A stretch of DNA of 44,089 nucleotides from assembly GCA_003252455.1 (NCBI GenBank), contig QKED01000056.1, forward strand, positions 1 through 44,089. The letters run 5' to 3'. This document shows positions 1,979-12,850 of this stretch, one piece after another. The notes under the pieces are model-generated. The model did not search any database and had not been told where the DNA came from. It was given only the letters and a program-made list of their open reading frames with translations. How positions within the stretch are numbered: position 1 is the first letter of the stretch; every line of letters begins with the position of its first letter. The DNA comes from Gammaproteobacteria bacterium (GTDB lineage Bacteria > Pseudomonadota > Gammaproteobacteria > Thiohalomonadales > Thiohalomonadaceae). The translations under genes were made by a program, and so were the position numbers.

Positions 1979-3238
1979 ATGGCGAAGAAAAACGCATTCT
2001 ACGCCCAGTCCGGAGGCGTGACTGCGGTCATCAACGCTTCGGCCTGTGGTGTGATCGAAGCCAGCCGTGAGAACAAGGGCGTGATCGGTAAGGTCTACGC
2101 CGGTCGCAACGGCATCATCGGCGCCCTCACCGAGGATCTCATCGATACCTCCAAAGAGAGCAAGAAGACCATCGAGGGCCTGCGCTACACCCCATCGGGC
2201 GCGTTCGGTTCCTGCCGCTATAAGCTCAAGGACCTGAATACGCACAAGCGTGAGTACGAGCGCCTCATCGAGGTGTTCGAGGCGCACAACATCGGTTTCT
2301 TCTTCTACAACGGTGGCGGTGACTCCGCCGACACCTGCCTCAAGGTCTCCCAGCTCTCCGAGCAGATGGGTTACCCGATCCAGGCCATCCACGTGCCCAA
2401 GACCGTGGACAACGACCTGCCGATCACCGACAACTGCCCCGGCTTCGGCTCTGTGGCCAAGTACATCGCCATCGCCACCCAGGAGGCGAGCTTCGACGTC
2501 GCCTCCATGGCCAAGACCTCCACCAAGGTCTTCGTGCTGGAGGTGATGGGTCGCCACGCGGGCTGGATCGCCGCCGCTGGCGCCCTGGCCTCCCGTGAGG
2601 ACCAGGAGATCCCAGTGGTCATCCTCTTCCCCGAGGTGCCCTTCAATCGCGCCAAGTTCATGGCCACCGTGCAGTCCAAGGTCGACAAGTTCGGCTACTG
2701 CTCCGTGGTGGTCTCCGAGGGTGTCGCCGACGCCGATGGTAAGTTCCTCGCCGACCAGGGCCTGAAGGACAACTTCGGCCACACCCAGCTCGGTGGCGTC
2801 GCCCCCGTGGTGGCCAACATGATCCGTGAAGACCTCGGTCTCAAGTACCACTGGGCCGTGGCCGACTACCTGCAGCGCGCCGGTCGTCACATCGCCTCCG
2901 GCACCGACGTGGAGCAGGCCTATCAGCTGGGTCGCGCGGCGGTGAAGCTGGCCGTCGAGGGTAAAAACTCGGTGATGCCCACCATCGTGCGTGGCAGTGG
3001 CAAGAAATACAGCTGGAGCATCGGTGAGGCCCCCCTCTCCAAGGTTGCGAACAAGGAGAAGTTCATGCCCAAGAGCTTCATCTCTCGCGATGGCTTCAGC
3101 ATCACCCCGAAGTGCCGCGAGTACCTGGAGCCGCTGATCCAGGGCGAGGATCCGCCGCCCTTCAAGAACGGCATGCCTCAGTACGTCAAGATCAAGGGCG
3201 TAGCGGTGCCGAAAAAGCTCGCAGACTTCGAGCTGTAA
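1979..3238 (+). CDS. pfp: Pyrophosphate-dependent 6-phosphofructokinase
   Basis: 419-residue protein of the phosphofructokinase family, starting at ATG 1979 after GGAGAG. It reversibly moves phosphate between PPi and fructose 6-phosphate. The donor choice can be read from sequence: the loop is GGGDS with Asp115 where ATP enzymes have Gly, and the catalytic stretch is PKTVDND with Lys141 where ATP enzymes have Gly. Both are the known marks of PPi use. Asp144 is the expected catalytic base. The enzyme works in both glycolytic and gluconeogenic directions; in Methylococcus and in sulfur-oxidising symbionts it has been proposed to replace FBPase/SBPase steps and feed PPi to a membrane pyrophosphatase. 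hppA and ppa follow directly, matching that picture. A strong hairpin terminator follows the stop, so it is probably its own transcript. Confidence 0.93.
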
Positions 3239-3244
3239 GCACTG

Positions 3245-3275
3245 AAAAAAAGGGGAGCGCTTCGCTCCCCTTTTT
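3245..3275. terminator. Intrinsic terminator after pfp (A- and T-flanked)
   Basis: GGGGAGC pairs with GCTCCCC around a short loop (3252-3270), preceded by seven A and followed by five T. It sits a few bases after the pfp stop and is a textbook rho-independent terminator. Confidence 0.9.
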
Positions 3276-3504
3276 CTTGGGCGTCGACTGGCCACAGATG
3301 TCGATGCCTCACCCTGGTGCTACTGCGCATGGGCGTGGGCCAGAAAAGATGCAGGTGTCTCCGTCACGTGCCCCATCATGGGGCTTGTTCGTCGTGGCTG
3401 GGGGCCGGGTCATGGGTGAGTGCCCTAGGGCGCGAGGGGTTGCACCTTTTTCTCCCTCACCCCGTTCGGGCCATAACTATAGAAAGATAGAGGAGTGTCT
3501 CCGT

Positions 3505-5532
<2,028 letters not shown>

Positions 5533-5538
5533 CGGTAC

Positions 5539-5567
5539 GCACCGGGGCGGGTTGTCTGCCCCGGTGC
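5539..5567. terminator. Hairpin just after hppA
   Basis: GCACCGGGGC (5539-5548) and GCCCCGGTGC (5558-5567) form a perfect 10-bp stem with a 9-nt loop. There is no clean T run behind it, so termination may be partial. Confidence 0.6.
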
Positions 5568-5599
5568 TATCCGGTATCTTGTTCGCCTATTTGCTATGG

Positions 5600-5628
5600 A
5601 GGCCGGTTCGCACCGGCCTTCTGCTTTT
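5600..5628 (+). terminator. Second hairpin with T run, between hppA and ppa
   Basis: AGGCCGGT (5600-5607) pairs with ACCGGCCT (5612-5619) around a 4-nt loop, followed by TCTGCTTTTT. It resembles an intrinsic terminator. Only 36 bp remain before the ppa start, leaving little room for a separate promoter, so it may act as an attenuator between hppA and ppa. Confidence 0.65.
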
Positions 5629-5664
5629 TGTCCCAGCGCATACACAAGCAAAGAGGCACGTCAC

Positions 5665-6213
5665 ATGAATCTGGATCGCGTCAGCTCCGGTCAGGACCTT
5701 CCCAACGAGATCAACGTCATTATCGAGATCCCGGCACACGCCGACCCGGTGAAGTACGAGGTCGACAAGGTGACCGGCGCCATGTTTGTCGACCGTTTCA
5801 TGAGCACCGCCATGCACTACCCGTGCAACTACGGCTACGTGCCTCACACCCTCTCCGCCGATGGCGACCCGGTCGATGTGCTGGTGGTCACACCGGTGCC
5901 GCTGATCAGCGGCTCGGTGATCCGTTGCCGTCCGGTGGGCGTGCTGAAGATGACCGACGAGTCGGGCGACGACGCCAAGGTGCTCGCCGTGCCGGTGACC
6001 AAGCTCTGTGCCTCCTACGCCAAGATGGGCAACATCGACGACATGCCGAAGATGCTGCTCGACCAGATCGCCCACTTCTTCGAGCACTATAAGGACCTCG
6101 ACGAGGGCAAGTGGGTGCGCGTGGACGGTTGGGGCAGCGTCGATGACGCCAAGAAGGAGATCATGGAGAGCGTCAAGATGTTCAAAGACGCCCCCGAGAA
6201 GCCCAACTTCTAA
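5665..6213 (+). CDS. ppa: Soluble inorganic pyrophosphatase, family I
   Basis: 182-residue cytosolic enzyme that hydrolyses PPi to two phosphates and so pulls biosynthetic reactions forward. Start chosen at ATG 5665 (GAGG at 5652), because the protein then begins like other family I enzymes ([23 protein letters not shown]). The family signature [12 protein letters not shown] with its metal-binding Asp residues is intact, as are the basic and acidic residues of [15 protein letters not shown]. Length is normal. Finding it next to hppA and pfp is notable because an active soluble enzyme would waste the PPi the other two use; some form of control is therefore expected. The two hairpins between hppA and ppa are one possible place for it. 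Confidence 0.95.
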
Positions 6214-7032: not shown

Positions 7033-8460
7033 ATGACCCGCTACGAACAGCTCGCCGAGACCCTGGCGCGCCAGATCCACTCTGGGGCCTGGGGGCCGGG
7101 TACCCGTATCCCCGGTACCCGCGAACTGTCACGCCTGCACCGGGCCAGCATCACTACGGTGATGGCGGCACAGCGCCTGCTGGAGGGGTGGGGGTTGGTC
7201 GAGGCGCGTCCGCGTTCGGGCTACTACGTGCGTGGCGCGGCCCTGCCCCTGGAGGCACCGGCGCTGCCGGAGGCGGTCGCGACGCCGGGGGCACCGACCC
7301 TGGTGCAGAGTCAGCGCATGGCGCTGACTCTGATCCAGGCGACCCAGCGGCGCGACGTTCTGCCCCTCGGTGCCGCCGTACCCGACGTCACCTTCCTTCC
7401 AGTGGCGGCCCTTAATCGTGCACTGGGTGCCGCCGCACGGCTGGCTGGTGACCGCGCGGGGGGCTACGACTTCCCCCCCGGCTGTCCCGAGTTGCGCGGC
7501 CAGATCGCCCGACGCATGGCCCTGGCCGGGTGTGATACCGGCCCCGAGGGGATCATCACCACCAGTGGGGCCCAGGAGGCGCTCACCTTGGCACTGCGTG
7601 CGGTGGCCGAGCCAGGGGATGTGATCGCCATCGAGACACCCACCTACTATGGGCTGTTGCAGGTGATCGAGGCGCTCGGTATGCGCGCCCTGGAGGTGCC
7701 CACCGACCCCCTCGCCGGACTCGACCCCGAGGCCCTCGCTCAGGCGCTGGCGCGTTGGCCGATCAAGGCGTGTGTGGTGGTGAGCAACTTCTCCAACCCG
7801 CTCGGCTGCGCCCTCAGCAGCGAGCGCAAACGGGCCCTGGTGACACTCTGCGCCAAGGCGCAGATCCCCCTGGTGGAGAACGATATCTATGGTGAGCTGG
7901 GCTTTGCCGATCAGCGCCCGTTGGCGGCCAAACACTTCGACCGCCACGGCAACGTGCTCTACCTCAGCTCCTTCTCAAAGACCCTGGAACCAGGCCTGCG
8001 GGTGGGGTGGATCGCACCGGGCCGCCACTTCGACCGCGTCGCCCACCTCAAATACGTGAGCTCACTGGCCACCCCAACAGTGCCGCAACTGGCGGTCGCG
8101 CGCTACCTGGAGCAGGGGGGGTACGAGCGCCAACTGCGCCGGGCCCGCGCCGCCTATGCGCGGCATGTCGAACTGATGAGCGCGGCGGTGCAGGGTCACT
8201 TTCCCGTCGGCACGCGCATCAGTCGTCCTACCGGTGGCTTCGTTATCTGGGTTGAGTTGCCCGAGGGGGCCGACAGCATGGCACTCTACGAGCAGGCGCT
8301 GAGCGAACGCATCACCATCGCCCCCGGGCCGCTCTTCTCCGCCACTGGGCGTTACCGCCACTGTCTGCGCCTCACCTGTGCCCAGCCCTGGGGGGCGGCC
8401 AGCGAACAGGGGATCGCCACCCTGGGGCGCTTGGCGCGTCAACAGCTGGAGGTAGGCTGA
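7033..8460 (+). CDS. MocR-family regulator (GntR DNA-binding domain plus aminotransferase-like domain)
   Basis: 475-residue protein. Residues 1-70 form a GntR winged helix-turn-helix (GTRELSRLHRASITTVMAAQ, then the wing VEARPRSGYYVRG). From about residue 95 it is a fold-type I aminotransferase domain with the PLP lysine in SSFSKTLEPGLRVGW (K316) and SNFSNPLG. MocR proteins sense PLP and an amino compound and usually control a neighbouring gene. The stop TGA shares its A with the ATG of the NRPS (TGATG), so the two are translationally coupled. This suggests it controls or is co-made with the NRPS. The upstream 237 bp hold no other gene and should contain the promoter and operator. Confidence 0.88.
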   Translation: MTRYEQLAETLARQIHSGAWGPGTRIPGTRELSRLHRASITTVMAAQRLLEGWGLVEARPRSGYYVRGAALPLEAPALPEAVATPGAPTLVQSQRMALTLIQATQRRDVLPLGAAVPDVTFLPVAALNRALGAAARLAGDRAGGYDFPPGCPELRGQIARRMALAGCDTGPEGIITTSGAQEALTLALRAVAEPGDVIAIETPTYYGLLQVIEALGMRALEVPTDPLAGLDPEALAQALARWPIKACVVVSNFSNPLGCALSSERKRALVTLCAKAQIPLVENDIYGELGFADQRPLAAKHFDRHGNVLYLSSFSKTLEPGLRVGWIAPGRHFDRVAHLKYVSSLATPTVPQLAVARYLEQGGYERQLRRARAAYARHVELMSAAVQGHFPVGTRISRPTGGFVIWVELPEGADSMALYEQALSERITIAPGPLFSATGRYRHCLRLTCAQPWGAASEQGIATLGRLARQQLEVG

Positions 8461-11400
8461 TGGCGGCGACGAGCAAGGGCACGCGCGGGCCGCAGCTCTA
8501 TCCACTCTCTGCCAACCAGCTGGCCATCTGGCTCGACCAGAGTGCCTGGCCAGAGCTGCCGCTGCACCAGCATGGGGTCTACCTGGAGCTACGCGGTGAG
8601 CTGGAGCTGCGCCGCCTACGTCAGGCCCTGGAACAGTTGGTGCGCGAGACCCTCGCGTTGCAGTTGCGCTTTGCGCTGCGCGATGGCCTGGTCTGGCAGT
8701 ACCTGGAGGAGGGGCCCGCGACCCTGCCGCGGCTCGACTTTCGCCGCCGCGCTCGCCCGCTGGAGGAGGCGCAGGCCTATCTGGCACAGCGTCTGGCCAC
8801 CCCGTTGCCACTCGACAAGGGGGCGTGTTGGGCGGTGGAGCTGATACAGGTGGGCAGCGGGCGCTACCTGCTCGGCGTGCGCGCCCACGCCCTGGTGTTG
8901 GACCGGCGTGGATTGAGCCTGGTGTGTGAGCGGCTCGCGGCACTCTATAGCGCATATGTCGCGCACGAGAGCATCACTGCCAACCCGGCGCCCGGCTTCC
9001 TGCGTGCTGTCCAAGACGAGCAGCACTACTGTGCCTCCGAGGCCTATGCAGAGGATGCGGCCTATTGGCGGGCGCGCCTCGCCACCCCTCCGGTGCAGCT
9101 GTTGGCGGCCCGCGGACAATCCATCGACACTGGGGGTCGGCACTTGCGTGCCGAGTCGGTCGCGTTGGCCTTGAGCGCCGACACCGTCGACCACCTACGC
9201 GCCTATCTGGAGCATGCCGAGGGGGGGTTATACGACCTGCTGCTCTGCGCCCTGGCGGTCTATCTGGCGCGCACCGCCGGTGCCACTCGACTGCTCATCG
9301 GTACCCGCGCGCCGCGTGGCGGTGCGCGCTACCGCACCACGCTCGGCCCCTTGGCCAGTTGGCTGCCGCTGGTGCTAGAGCTCGACCCGCTGATGCCGGC
9401 GGCAGAGCTGCTTACCCACTGCCGCCTGCGCCGTGCCGAGGCGATCCCGCACTGGCGCTACCCCCTGAGTGAGGTCAATCGCCGTCTGGAGCTGTTGCGT
9501 CGGGGTCGTGGACAGCTCTTCGAGGTGGTGGTGGAGCCCCTGGAGGTGGAGGCCGAACTGCATTTTGGCCCCCTCAGCGCGACCTTGCTGCATCTGTCGA
9601 GCGGTTTCGCCAGCCACCCTCTGGTGCTGGGGCTGGAGGAGGGGCGACGTGGTGGCCGACTGCTGCTCACCGGCAGTGAGACGCTGTTTGGTGCCGCGCG
9701 CCTGCAGCGCTTGGGCGAGGGTTTGGTCCAACTCCTGGAGGAGATGGCCGAGCGACCGGAGGCGAGTCTCTCTACCCTGGAGCTGCTTGGCCCCACCGAC
9801 CTGGCGATGCTGCGTGACTACAATCAGGTCCCCTATCACGCCCCGAACCAGGGGCTCAGCGCCCAACTGGAGGCGGCAGCGCGCCGCTGGCCCGAGCAGG
9901 TCGCGTTGGAGTGGGGCGAGGAGAGTCTCGGTTATCAGGAGCTGATGCTCTGGAGTGGGCGCCTCGCCATGCGTCTGCTGCGAGAGGGGGTCGGTCAAGG
10001 CGACCTGGTGGCCATCTGCACGCATCGCGGTCCCGAACTGATCCTGGCGCTGCTGGCGGTGATCCGCGTCGGCGCCGCCTGGCTGCCGCTCGACCCGGAG
10101 GCGCCGCGCGGCAAGCAGATCAAGTTCCTCGCCCAGGGCAAGGCGCGGCTGGTGCTCGGGCGCCAGGCCGACGCCGGGCTGCTCTACGGTCTGCACGCCC
10201 AGGTGCTGGCGGTAGACGAGGAGGGGGTACTCGGGCCGGTGGGTGAGCTACCCCCGCTCAAGGAGGGGGGGGTACGCGCGAGTTACCTGATCTACACCTT
10301 GGGTAACCCGCCCAAGGGGGTGGTGGTGAGTGAACCGGCGCTGCTCCGCCGGCTCGATTGGTTCCGTACCCACCTCGCCCTGACCGAGCATGACCGGGTC
10401 TGTCTACAGGCCCACTTCGCCACCGATGCGGCACTGGTGGAGCTGCTGCTCCCGCTGCTGCATGGTGCGACCCTGGTGCTCGCCCCCGAGCGCCTCACCC
10501 CGCGCGAGTTGGGGCGCTTTGTCCTCGATCGTGGGGTGAGCTGCATGACCCTCCTCCCGGCCTCCCTGCGCGGCTATGTACAGGCGGCGGAGGAGTTGGG
10601 GCGGGGCACCCTGCGTGTGGCACTGTGCAGTGGTGAGACCCTGCCGGCGCCGCTGGTCAACCGCTTCCTGGCGATCAACGCCGCGCGCCTCTACAACCTC
10701 TATGGACCCACCGAGGCGGTGCTCGGGGCCACCGCCTGGGCCGCGCGTGCCACCCACCCGGAGCACCCGGTACCCCTCGGTACGCCGCTGGACAACACGC
10801 GCATCCAGATCCTCGACGAGAGCCTACAACCGCTGCCAGTGGGGCAGGTGGGAGAGATCTGCATCGGCGGCACCGCCATTGCCGACGGCTACCTGGGCGA
10901 CGAGGTGCGCGACATGCGCCACTTCATCCCCGACCCCTTTGCCACCCGCGCCGACGGGCGCCTGTTCCGCAGCGGCGATCTCGGCTACCTAGGCGACGAT
11001 GGTCAACTCTATTTTGTCGGTCGCAGCGATCGTCAGCTGCGTCTGCACACTCGTACCATAGACCCGGAGGCGGTCGAGGCGCTCATCGACACCCTGCCCG
11101 GGGTGCAGTCGGCGGCGGTCCGTGTGCTCGGCAGTGGTGAGGAGGCGCGTCTGCACGCCTATGTGGTATCGAGCCGCCTCCCCGAGGGCGCAGGGGAGGC
11201 GGCCATCTCCCCGGTGCTGCAGGCCGCACTGCCCAACTACCTGCAGCCGCGCAGCGTGCAGTGTATCGAGCAGATGCCGCTCGACCCGGTGAGCGGCAAG
11301 ATCGATCGCGAGGCGTTACCGCCGCCGTTGGAGGGGCACGAGGGGCGTTACGCGCGGCTCGATGCACCGTTGTTGGAGCAAGTGAGCGCGAGTTGGCAGC

Positions 11401-12299
11401 AGGCTCTCGGTGAGTTCGAGCCGCTCTACGCCGAGGATAACTTCTTCGACCGAGGGGGGGACTCCCTCGCCCTGGTGACCCTGGCCGAGAGCCTCTCGCG
11501 CCGCTTCGACGAGCGCCTGAGTGTCGAGGCACTGCTCCTGCGTCCCACCCTGGGCGAGCAGGTGGCACTCATCGAACAGCGTCGCCTGCGTGCCCACGGC
11601 GCCCTCTCGGTGCCGCTCAACGAGCCGCGACAGGCCTCCCTGACCCTCTATCTGTGCGCCGCCAGCGGCGAAGATCTGCTCCCCTTCACCGCCCTGGCCG
11701 AGGCGCTCCACCCCGATGTGCAGGTGAAGATGTTGCGCCCACCGGACCGAGTCGGGCGGATCCTGTTGCCCGAATTGGCGCAGCGTTATCTCGCGCTCAT
11801 CGGGCGCGGTGGTGGGCCGACCCTGGTGGGGGGCTACTCGTTGGGCGGCTTTGCCGCCCTGGAGTTAGCGCAGGCACTTGCGGTGGACGGGCGCCCGCCC
11901 CAGGCGCTCCTACTCATCGATACCCCCTATCCACGCTGGCCACTGACCGACCCCGGCGCATCGGCACGTATCGCGCGGCGCCTGGCCAGTGCCGCCCCCT
12001 ATCACGGTCTGGAGTTGCTGCGTCGTGCGGAGCAGGAGCCAGCACTGCGCGTGCAGCTGGAGGCGTTGAGCCACTATCGACTCGGACAACCCTGCCCCGT
12101 GGCCACCTGGCTACTCACCTCACCGGCCCTACCGTGGGTCGAGGGCTACTGGTACTCGCCCTGGCAGCGCTACGCCCCCGAGCGATTGACGCGGGTCACG
12201 CTGAGCGAGGGGGAGGGGGCGCTGTTCGGCCCACGCCACGTGCATGCCCTGGCCGGATTGGTGCGCCGTCTGGGCCGTTCGTCGGATGTGTGCGATTAG
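8460..12299 (+). CDS. Single-module NRPS (C-A-PCP-TE), with eroded C and A motifs
   Basis: 1279-residue protein with the EntF layout: condensation (about 12-440), adenylation (465-960), carrier (975-1045) and thioesterase (1065-1275). The carrier has GGDS with the phosphopantetheine serine S1002, and the thioesterase has GYSLGG with S1127 and a late His near 1260; both look active. In the C domain the HHxxxDG motif reads HALVLDR (H143-R149), so the catalytic second His is Ala and the Gly is Arg. In the A domain the A3 phosphate loop, normally YTSGSTGxPKG, is a shortened YTLGNPPKG near 612-620. The A8 RGxR is lost, while A5 (NLYGPTE) and the A10 Lys are kept. A by-eye specificity code is D-A-V-T-L-S-L-L-G-K, which I do not recognise. 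GGAGG precedes the start. No phosphopantetheinyl transferase, transporter or second NRPS is nearby. Confidence 0.88.
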   Translation: MAATSKGTRGPQLYPLSANQLAIWLDQSAWPELPLHQHGVYLELRGELELRRLRQALEQLVRETLALQLRFALRDGLVWQYLEEGPATLPRLDFRRRARPLEEAQAYLAQRLATPLPLDKGACWAVELIQVGSGRYLLGVRAHALVLDRRGLSLVCERLAALYSAYVAHESITANPAPGFLRAVQDEQHYCASEAYAEDAAYWRARLATPPVQLLAARGQSIDTGGRHLRAESVALALSADTVDHLRAYLEHAEGGLYDLLLCALAVYLARTAGATRLLIGTRAPRGGARYRTTLGPLASWLPLVLELDPLMPAAELLTHCRLRRAEAIPHWRYPLSEVNRRLELLRRGRGQLFEVVVEPLEVEAELHFGPLSATLLHLSSGFASHPLVLGLEEGRRGGRLLLTGSETLFGAARLQRLGEGLVQLLEEMAERPEASLSTLELLGPTDLAMLRDYNQVPYHAPNQGLSAQLEAAARRWPEQVALEWGEESLGYQELMLWSGRLAMRLLREGVGQGDLVAICTHRGPELILALLAVIRVGAAWLPLDPEAPRGKQIKFLAQGKARLVLGRQADAGLLYGLHAQVLAVDEEGVLGPVGELPPLKEGGVRASYLIYTLGNPPKGVVVSEPALLRRLDWFRTHLALTEHDRVCLQAHFATDAALVELLLPLLHGATLVLAPERLTPRELGRFVLDRGVSCMTLLPASLRGYVQAAEELGRGTLRVALCSGETLPAPLVNRFLAINAARLYNLYGPTEAVLGATAWAARATHPEHPVPLGTPLDNTRIQILDESLQPLPVGQVGEICIGGTAIADGYLGDEVRDMRHFIPDPFATRADGRLFRSGDLGYLGDDGQLYFVGRSDRQLRLHTRTIDPEAVEALIDTLPGVQSAAVRVLGSGEEARLHAYVVSSRLPEGAGEAAISPVLQAALPNYLQPRSVQCIEQMPLDPVSGKIDREALPPPLEGHEGRYARLDAPLLEQVSASWQQALGEFEPLYAEDNFFDRGGDSLALVTLAESLSRRFDERLSVEALLLRPTLGEQVALIEQRRLRAHGALSVPLNEPRQASLTLYLCAASGEDLLPFTALAEALHPDVQVKMLRPPDRVGRILLPELAQRYLALIGRGGGPTLVGGYSLGGFAALELAQALAVDGRPPQALLLIDTPYPRWPLTDPGASARIARRLASAAPYHGLELLRRAEQEPALRVQLEALSHYRLGQPCPVATWLLTSPALPWVEGYWYSPWQRYAPERLTRVTLSEGEGALFGPRHVHALAGLVRRLGRSSDVCD

Positions 12300-12424: not shown

Positions 12425-12451
12425 ACCTTGTCACGTAGAGGAGGCTGTGTG

Positions 12452-12850
12452 ATGAGTCTTTCTGGTGGTGATTGGGAGCGTAGGCTCGATAGTCGCATGA
12501 AGGTGGGTTGCAGTGCCGAGTGCCACCTGGAGGAGGGGCACGGCGAGTCGCTCCCGGCCATGTTGGACAACATCAGCCAGACCGGGGCCCTGGTCTGGCT
12601 GGGGCGTGACCTGCCGGTCGGTACCCGTTTCGAGCTGCTGCTCGAACCCGAGTGTGGTGACGCCGAGCCTGGCAGTGAGCCGCTCACCATGCTCCTTGAG
12701 GTGCTCCGTGTCGTGGGCAAACACGATGAGCTGGGGCGGGTCGGCTATGGCTGCATCATCCTCGAGACCAGCCTTGAGGCCATTGCCGCCGATATCTTCT
12801 CCTCGCCGGGTCCTATCGAGGCCCAACTCAAGGGACCCCTGCTCACCTGA
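12452..12850 (+). CDS. PilZ-domain protein
   Basis: 132-residue protein. Start chosen at ATG 12452, with GAGGAGG at 12438-12444 at good spacing. It has the two halves of the c-di-GMP-binding PilZ signature: basic RRLDSRMKV near the N-terminus (residues 10-18) and DNISQTGALVW (matching D/N-x-S-x-x-G) about 30 residues later. PilZ proteins bind the second messenger cyclic di-GMP and control motility, polysaccharide or adhesion. It stands alone between the NRPS and the convergent DUF1841 gene, so its partner is not evident. An HD-GYP protein, of the class that degrades c-di-GMP, is encoded at 23218-24843. Confidence 0.85.
   Translation: MSLSGGDWERRLDSRMKVGCSAECHLEEGHGESLPAMLDNISQTGALVWLGRDLPVGTRFELLLEPECGDAEPGSEPLTMLLEVLRVVGKHDELGRVGYGCIILETSLEAIAADIFSSPGPIEAQLKGPLLT

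Follow-up and report, generated by a model that had tools for sequence, protein, structure and literature searches.

The window analysed here, a stretch of 44,089 nucleotides that constitutes an entire contig (QKED01000056.1, C19) of a gammaproteobacterial genome assembly (4.58 Mb in 118 contigs, 99.72% complete; the gene set and the hosts of the nearest MocR homologues likewise point to this class), carries on its forward strand, at 8460..12299, a gene for a one-module nonribosomal peptide synthetase (NRPS) with condensation (C), adenylation (A), carrier (T) and thioesterase (TE) domains. The C, A and TE domains all have losses at catalytic or phosphate-site residues, while the phosphopantetheine serine of the carrier stands. 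No single change proves that a domain is dead; taken together, the changes make a self-sufficient synthetase unlikely, and the protein has probably ceased to be one. Our tentative reading, to which we assign a probability of about 0.45, is that of a synthetase whose catalysis has degraded while its fold and carrier would have stayed under constraint; any remaining role would be that of a carrier or scaffold which is supplied in trans.

Domain order and altered residues

The reading frame runs without interruption from the ATG at 8460 to the stop codon at 12299, with zero internal stops across 1279 codons, as had originally been predicted. Four Pfam domains were detected above their cut-offs, in a single frame and in the order C-A-T-TE expected of an NRPS termination module. 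These are a full-length condensation domain (8496..9800, aa 13-447, 150.6 bits, found at the same place in the genome search), the AMP-binding part of the A domain (9867..10895, aa 470-812, 198.6 bits, with A10 Lys947 downstream at nt 11298), a PP-binding carrier domain (11379..11573, aa 974-1038, 38 bits) and a thioesterase region (11595..12296, with the Pfam match at aa 1076-1159, 37.9 bits). NRPS genes are usually read through domain calls together with motifs, and domain calls alone do not show activity: all four pass here. Residues were compared in a homologue alignment of 33 rows besides the query, from which six near-duplicate rows had been dropped beforehand.

In the A domain, two loops are altered. 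The A3 loop, which is the phosphate-binding loop in this enzyme class, reads YTLGN--PPKG (10293..10319, from aa 612) and is two residues shorter than in the homologues. All 33 homologues have Ser in the column of aa 614 and Thr in that of aa 617, and the loop departs from the TSG(S/T)TGxPKG pattern. The A8 region (GRSDRQLRLHTRTIDPEAVE, 11019..11078) contains RLHTRTID in place of the (K/R)(I/L)RGxRIE found in most homologues; its Gly and Arg columns, likewise invariant in all 33, are occupied by Thr864 and Thr866, and RGxR is thus absent. Both the shortened A3 loop and the loss of RGxR had been noted in the original prediction, and the alignment bears them out. The two loops, approximately 250 residues apart in sequence, converge on the ATP phosphate/pyrophosphate (PPi) site. 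Key residues of the remaining A motifs are kept, namely A4 Asp656, A5 Glu752, A7 Asp840, A8 Arg855 and A10 Lys947. The specificity code, taken manually from an alignment with EntF at what we take to be the code positions, is D-A-V-T-L-S-L-L-G-K, which shares 4/10 positions with that of EntF in the same alignment (D-V-W-H-F-S-L-V-D-K) and names no substrate. AlphaFold models built from single sequences had mean predicted local distance difference test scores of 41.2 for the TE region and 35.4 for the A region; they were too poor and were not used.

In the C domain, HHxxxDG was confirmed to have changed to HALVLDR (C3; 8886..8906, aa 143-149), with Ala144 in place of the second His, which a catalytic condensation domain carries, and Arg149 in place of the Gly. 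The corresponding columns hold His in 31/33 and Gly in 28/33 homologues. Taken alone, the altered C3 would be a weak sign, because two other proteins (L010, with HSLLLDR, and L018) lack the second His and a third (L019) lacks the first; motif tallies for C3 take in domain fragments and were used for these named rows only. L017 was also tallied without HHxxxD, its motif lying outside the stretch printed. L010 (L068:3483-8186, G001:C58) is a same-family T-C-A-T-reductase protein with canonical A motifs, encoded inside a polyketide synthase (PKS)/NRPS cluster. It was considered as a sister of the query on account of HSLLLDR and rejected; its C3 likeness to the query looks convergent, since the C-domain tree groups it with L021.

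The carrier serine is preserved, again as predicted, as Ser1002 within the GGDSL motif of a peptidyl carrier domain. The thioesterase, which had been described as intact, is not. Its Ser1127 (GYSLGG, nt 11832 on) and Asp1154 (LLIDT, nt 11910 on) are retained, but the column of the catalytic His is occupied by Glu1252 (SEGEGALF, nt 12204 on), against His in 18/18 other thioesterases (among them that of the C77 cluster of the same genome and one free-standing enzyme), and the Ser-Asp-His triad is incomplete. Placement of this column follows from the multiple alignment, in which the query is the only row without the His, and from a profile alignment that is ungapped through the domain end, although over this final part the profile match is weak, at 3.0 bits. 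The middle of the domain is shorter than in the other TE rows of the multiple alignment. The next histidines, His1260 and His1262, follow 8 and 10 residues after Glu1252. Because the catalytic His is lost, the 'thioesterase system' that had been proposed as one possible role is not supported.

Homologues and phylogenetic placement

No orthologue was found in 56 relatives, 20 genomes of the order, 369 of the class or 398 of the phylum, nor in 5 genomes from the order of G028. Match counts given here include the window's own genome, and the number of candidates scored per genome was at most 2 in the class and phylum searches, 4 in a search with the C domain only and 11 in that of the 56 relatives. 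Matches were recorded in 13/56 relatives (E-value of 1e-30 or better), 11/369 genomes of the class (1e-92), 29/398 of the phylum (1e-95) and 3/20 of the order (1e-90), of which, among the 19 genomes other than its own, two matched at 30-31% identity. Overall, identities of the genome-search matches were 22-32%, with the best at about 30%. With the C domain alone as query, the protein itself was the sole match at 1e-30 in the 369 class genomes. A peptide-pattern scan of 84,980 species, which reaches close relatives only, returned 25 stretches that fit a pattern, none of them a relative, and a scan of viral contigs with the same reach returned none. A tblastn search of plasmids gave 80 records, all below 60% identity, the 15 listed being at 27-32%.

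The best full-length match was L163 from G454 (429.9 bits, aa 13-1269, 29.7% identity over 1229 positions), and another, L165 from G509, also spans the protein (358 bits, aa 13-1276). Both are C-A-T-TE synthetases of the same phylum and, unlike the query, have canonical C3, A3, A8 and TE His. It had been suggested that canonical motifs in orthologues would point to recent pseudogenisation; the nearest full-length homologues are indeed canonical but, at about 30% identity, are not orthologues and do not show that the loss was recent. The surroundings of L163 contain patatin/cNMP-binding, radical SAM and carboxyl-methyltransferase genes. At L182 in G454 and L183 in G509, a stand-alone canonical C-A-T-TE gene lies near a cNMP-binding/patatin gene of the neuropathy-target-esterase type, and at L182 also near radical SAM and leucine carboxyl methyltransferase-type genes; the frames around L183 are alike by appearance only. 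This shared setting looks like a conserved pathway.

The protein had been called EntF-like, which holds for its domain order and for a distant kinship, but not for membership in the EntF equivalog: it scores 354.7 bits against NF007605, with a cut-off of 2400. It can be aligned end to end with EntF of E. coli (26.4% identity, 1224 aligned positions), which has HHxxxDG, TSGSTGRPKG, IRGQRIE and the TE His, whereas the query lacks all four. In C and A trees built without L163-L165, the query groups with EntF-type proteins (support 100/98 and 99/84, respectively). A place within the EntF clade, suggested by these trees, was abandoned once the three sequences were added, as the query then joined L163, L165 and L164 in a group set apart in an 18-row tree with a support of 99/98. 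The branch of the query is the longest in that tree (2.22), and its placement is unsure.

Decay or constraint

Conserved sites of the A domain, defined by a conservation of 85% or more across the remaining rows, are lost unevenly: 14/26 within the A3 and A8 loops and 7/60 elsewhere (Fisher P = 7e-5). With a threshold of 95%, the figures are 8/16 and 4/33 (P 0.006). None of the 33 homologues has more than 4 losses in the loops. Outside them, five of the 33 lose more than the 7 sites of the query, namely L002 (22), L034 (10), L019 (10), L165 (8) and L053 (8), the count for L002 being possibly inflated by an inserted nitroreductase domain. GC content by codon position is even along the C, A, T and TE domains (about.77/.48/.82; the regulator gene upstream has.73/.54/.82). 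Single-base nonsense changes amount to 0.044 of the missense ones in this frame, so that by our own arithmetic 100 unselected missense changes would be accompanied by about 4.4 stops, with a chance of about 1% of finding none. The A-domain losses gather in the phosphate-site loops, while the remainder of the domain, the open frame and the codon pattern are kept, which speaks against simple random decay. The original prediction had reached the same conclusion, partly from the premise of a spared thioesterase, which fell with the loss of its His.

A hypothetical course of events may be outlined as follows. A one-module C-A-T-TE synthetase would have turned largely non-catalytic along its own long branch, losing the A3 and A8 loops that make up the ATP phosphate/PPi pocket of its A domain, along with one histidine each in C (the second of C3) and TE (the catalytic one), whereas the C and A folds and the carrier domain would have stayed constrained. 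If the protein still works, its carrier would most likely be converted to the holo form by one of the genome's phosphopantetheinyl transferases and charged in trans by an A domain of another protein, with C, A and TE serving as docking surfaces; the protein would presumably be co-produced with the MocR-type regulator whose gene overlaps its start. If true, this would provide a clear-cut example of a pseudo-synthetase, with three catalytic domains altered and the fold and carrier serine kept.

Several observations weigh against this reading. The P value for the loops is partly circular, as the A3 and A8 loops had been flagged before the testing, and across all conserved A sites the query retains the least of 30 rows (64/88), with L002 next. 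Its synonymous-codon score is 0.297 for the whole frame, below those of seven other genes of the window (from 0.319 for the MocR gene to 0.519), which themselves served as the reference; by domain, the score falls from 0.367 in A and 0.325 in T to 0.263 in C and 0.198 in TE. Since no orthologue was found in which the altered residues could be seen to be conserved, constraint after the loss is not proved, and there is no known partner A domain or product. Even the carrier may be imperfect, with Arg998 just before GGDSL where 19/19 other alignment rows carry Leu. Lastly, individual changes need not be fatal. Mutation of the A8 Arg of GrsA (R439A) left the rate of thioester formation almost unchanged unless PPi was in excess (PMC8341999), and according to a review, mutation of the second His of C domains does not abolish activity in every case, an HQxxxDM domain (ORF18) being active (PMC11546977).

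Of the alternatives, the one that survives best is a non-functional relic, i.e. an orphan synthetase left without its pathway or its catalysis that has not yet acquired a stop or frameshift; we regard this as unlikely, though far from negligible. It would fit a gene that stands alone (with no MbtH match, no 2,3-dihydroxybenzoate-AMP ligase above cut-off and no other NRPS match on the contig), in which all three catalytic domains are hit and TE and C show the weakest codon preference. It would equally fit canonical nearest full-length homologues and the two rather distant matches among the 19 other genomes of the order. Against it stand the intact frame, the even GC by codon position, the preserved Shine-Dalgarno sequence and gene overlap, and the clustering of the A-domain losses; a two-codon shortening with several codon replacements also exceeds a few recent hits. 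Should it nevertheless be a relic, the gene would exemplify catalysis being lost ahead of the frame.

Less probable still is a competent enzyme with unusual motifs, which would condense without the second His, use a remodelled A phosphate loop and rely in its TE on Glu1252 or a nearby His. The five A-motif residues listed above, the proximity of His1260 and His1262 to Glu1252, the occurrence of HSLLLDR beside canonical A motifs in the PKS/NRPS cluster of L010, and the cited behaviour of ORF18 and GrsA are all in its favour; what argues the other way is that a single protein combines changes at the second C-domain His, in the A3 loop, at both A8 residues (Gly and Arg) and at the TE His. A sequencing or assembly error, to which one might turn as the altered motifs occur in only one of the genomes searched, is very improbable, the frame being open on either side of each motif and the changes being separate codon replacements and an in-frame two-codon shortening rather than one slip.

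A more far-reaching reading is a pseudo-synthetase translated with the MocR-type regulator, in which the C, A and TE folds, and perhaps substrate binding, but not catalysis, would be kept around a live carrier, the whole protein acting as an amino-acid- or PPi-responsive carrier or scaffold. We consider this speculative and improbable. Substrate binding might have been kept, since A4 Asp656 and A10 Lys947 are retained, and a PPi-responsive role is amenable to testing because both remodelled loops lie at the phosphate/PPi site and genes upstream handle PPi.

Genomic context

Immediately upstream of the synthetase, on the same strand, lies a gene (7033..8460) for a MocR-type regulator with a GntR helix-turn-helix (Pfam, 47.7 bits) and an aminotransferase-fold domain (Aminotran_1_2, 114 bits); its top NCBIfam match is PdxR (246 bits, below the cut-off of 320). 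Read from the sequence, its stop codon and the start of the synthetase share one base, both frames being open, and a Shine-Dalgarno-like GGAGGT (8448..8453, forward strand) is situated 6 nt 5' of the ATG. This arrangement suggests that the two genes may be co-expressed. No NRPS match was obtained by tblastn beside MocR homologues in 93 loci with flanks of 6 kb or less (91 distinct places, as L072 and L073 repeat two; 80 of the loci are the best of 115; flanks were 1.5 kb for genome-search loci, and some end at contig ends), and no MocR match was found in the stretches fetched around L163 and L165.

Further upstream (1979-6213) are genes for a PPi-dependent phosphofructokinase (PRK14072, 645 bits), a membrane ion-pumping pyrophosphatase and a soluble inorganic pyrophosphatase; their position upstream of a synthetase with loop changes at the PPi site is probably a coincidence. 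A PilZ-domain protein is encoded directly downstream on the same strand (12428-12850). A scan for promoters and terminators gave a single promoter-like site, which lies past the synthetase gene on the minus strand, and three terminator-like sites (1.7 in shuffles, sd 1.4), none of which was used. A second NRPS match on the 44-kb contig was not found.

Elsewhere in the genome, there are two matches to the ACPS-family transferases, one of which, on contig C77, has the N-terminal domain of Sfp-like enzymes, and places resembling A domains exist. Such a transferase could convert the carrier to its holo form, and other A domains could load it, but that they do so is conjecture. Contig C77 (L069, L070) harbours a hybrid PKS/NRPS cluster with an aromatic amino acid lyase, an FkbH-like protein, a carbamoyltransferase, a phosphopantetheinyl transferase, a heterocyclization-type C motif, a nitroreductase domain inside an NRPS and a C-T-TE protein. 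Contig C56 (L071:9637-13227) encodes a 1196-aa protein with AMP-ligase, carrier and C domains, read as fatty acyl-AMP ligase (FAAL)-T-C, adjoining genes for a sulfotransferase and for an ABC exporter that carries a cNMP-binding domain; among ten frames scanned, eight of them from that stretch, no acceptor module was seen. No MbtH match was found in the genome, and no 2,3-dihydroxybenzoate-AMP ligase above cut-off (the best of 16 weaker matches had 170.9 bits against 723.55); an EntF-like role in a catechol siderophore pathway is therefore not supported.

Comparison with known systems

Literature pairing 'pseudoenzyme' with 'nonribosomal peptide synthetase' was not found in the library searched, and the match found for MocR together with NRPS concerns, judging by its title, PLP-dependent domains built into assembly lines. 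Two known situations offer parallels, although the query was assigned to neither: each is defined by a partner or a recruited enzyme, which is not shown for it. According to a review (PMC8949500), inactive A domains are complemented in trans in the albicidin, ramoplanin and enduracidin lines. As is probable for the query, the A domain is present yet non-functional, and that of albicidin has poor core motifs; these are, however, multimodular lines with a stand-alone A-T partner, whereas the query is a lone module in which C and TE are altered as well. The same review describes the X domains of glycopeptide synthetases as relatives of C domains that have a mutated HHxxxDG and serve as recruiting platforms (PMC8949500). 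X domains recruit an oxygenase, while the query consists of one module only, without a known recruited oxygenase, and resembles them in the altered motif.

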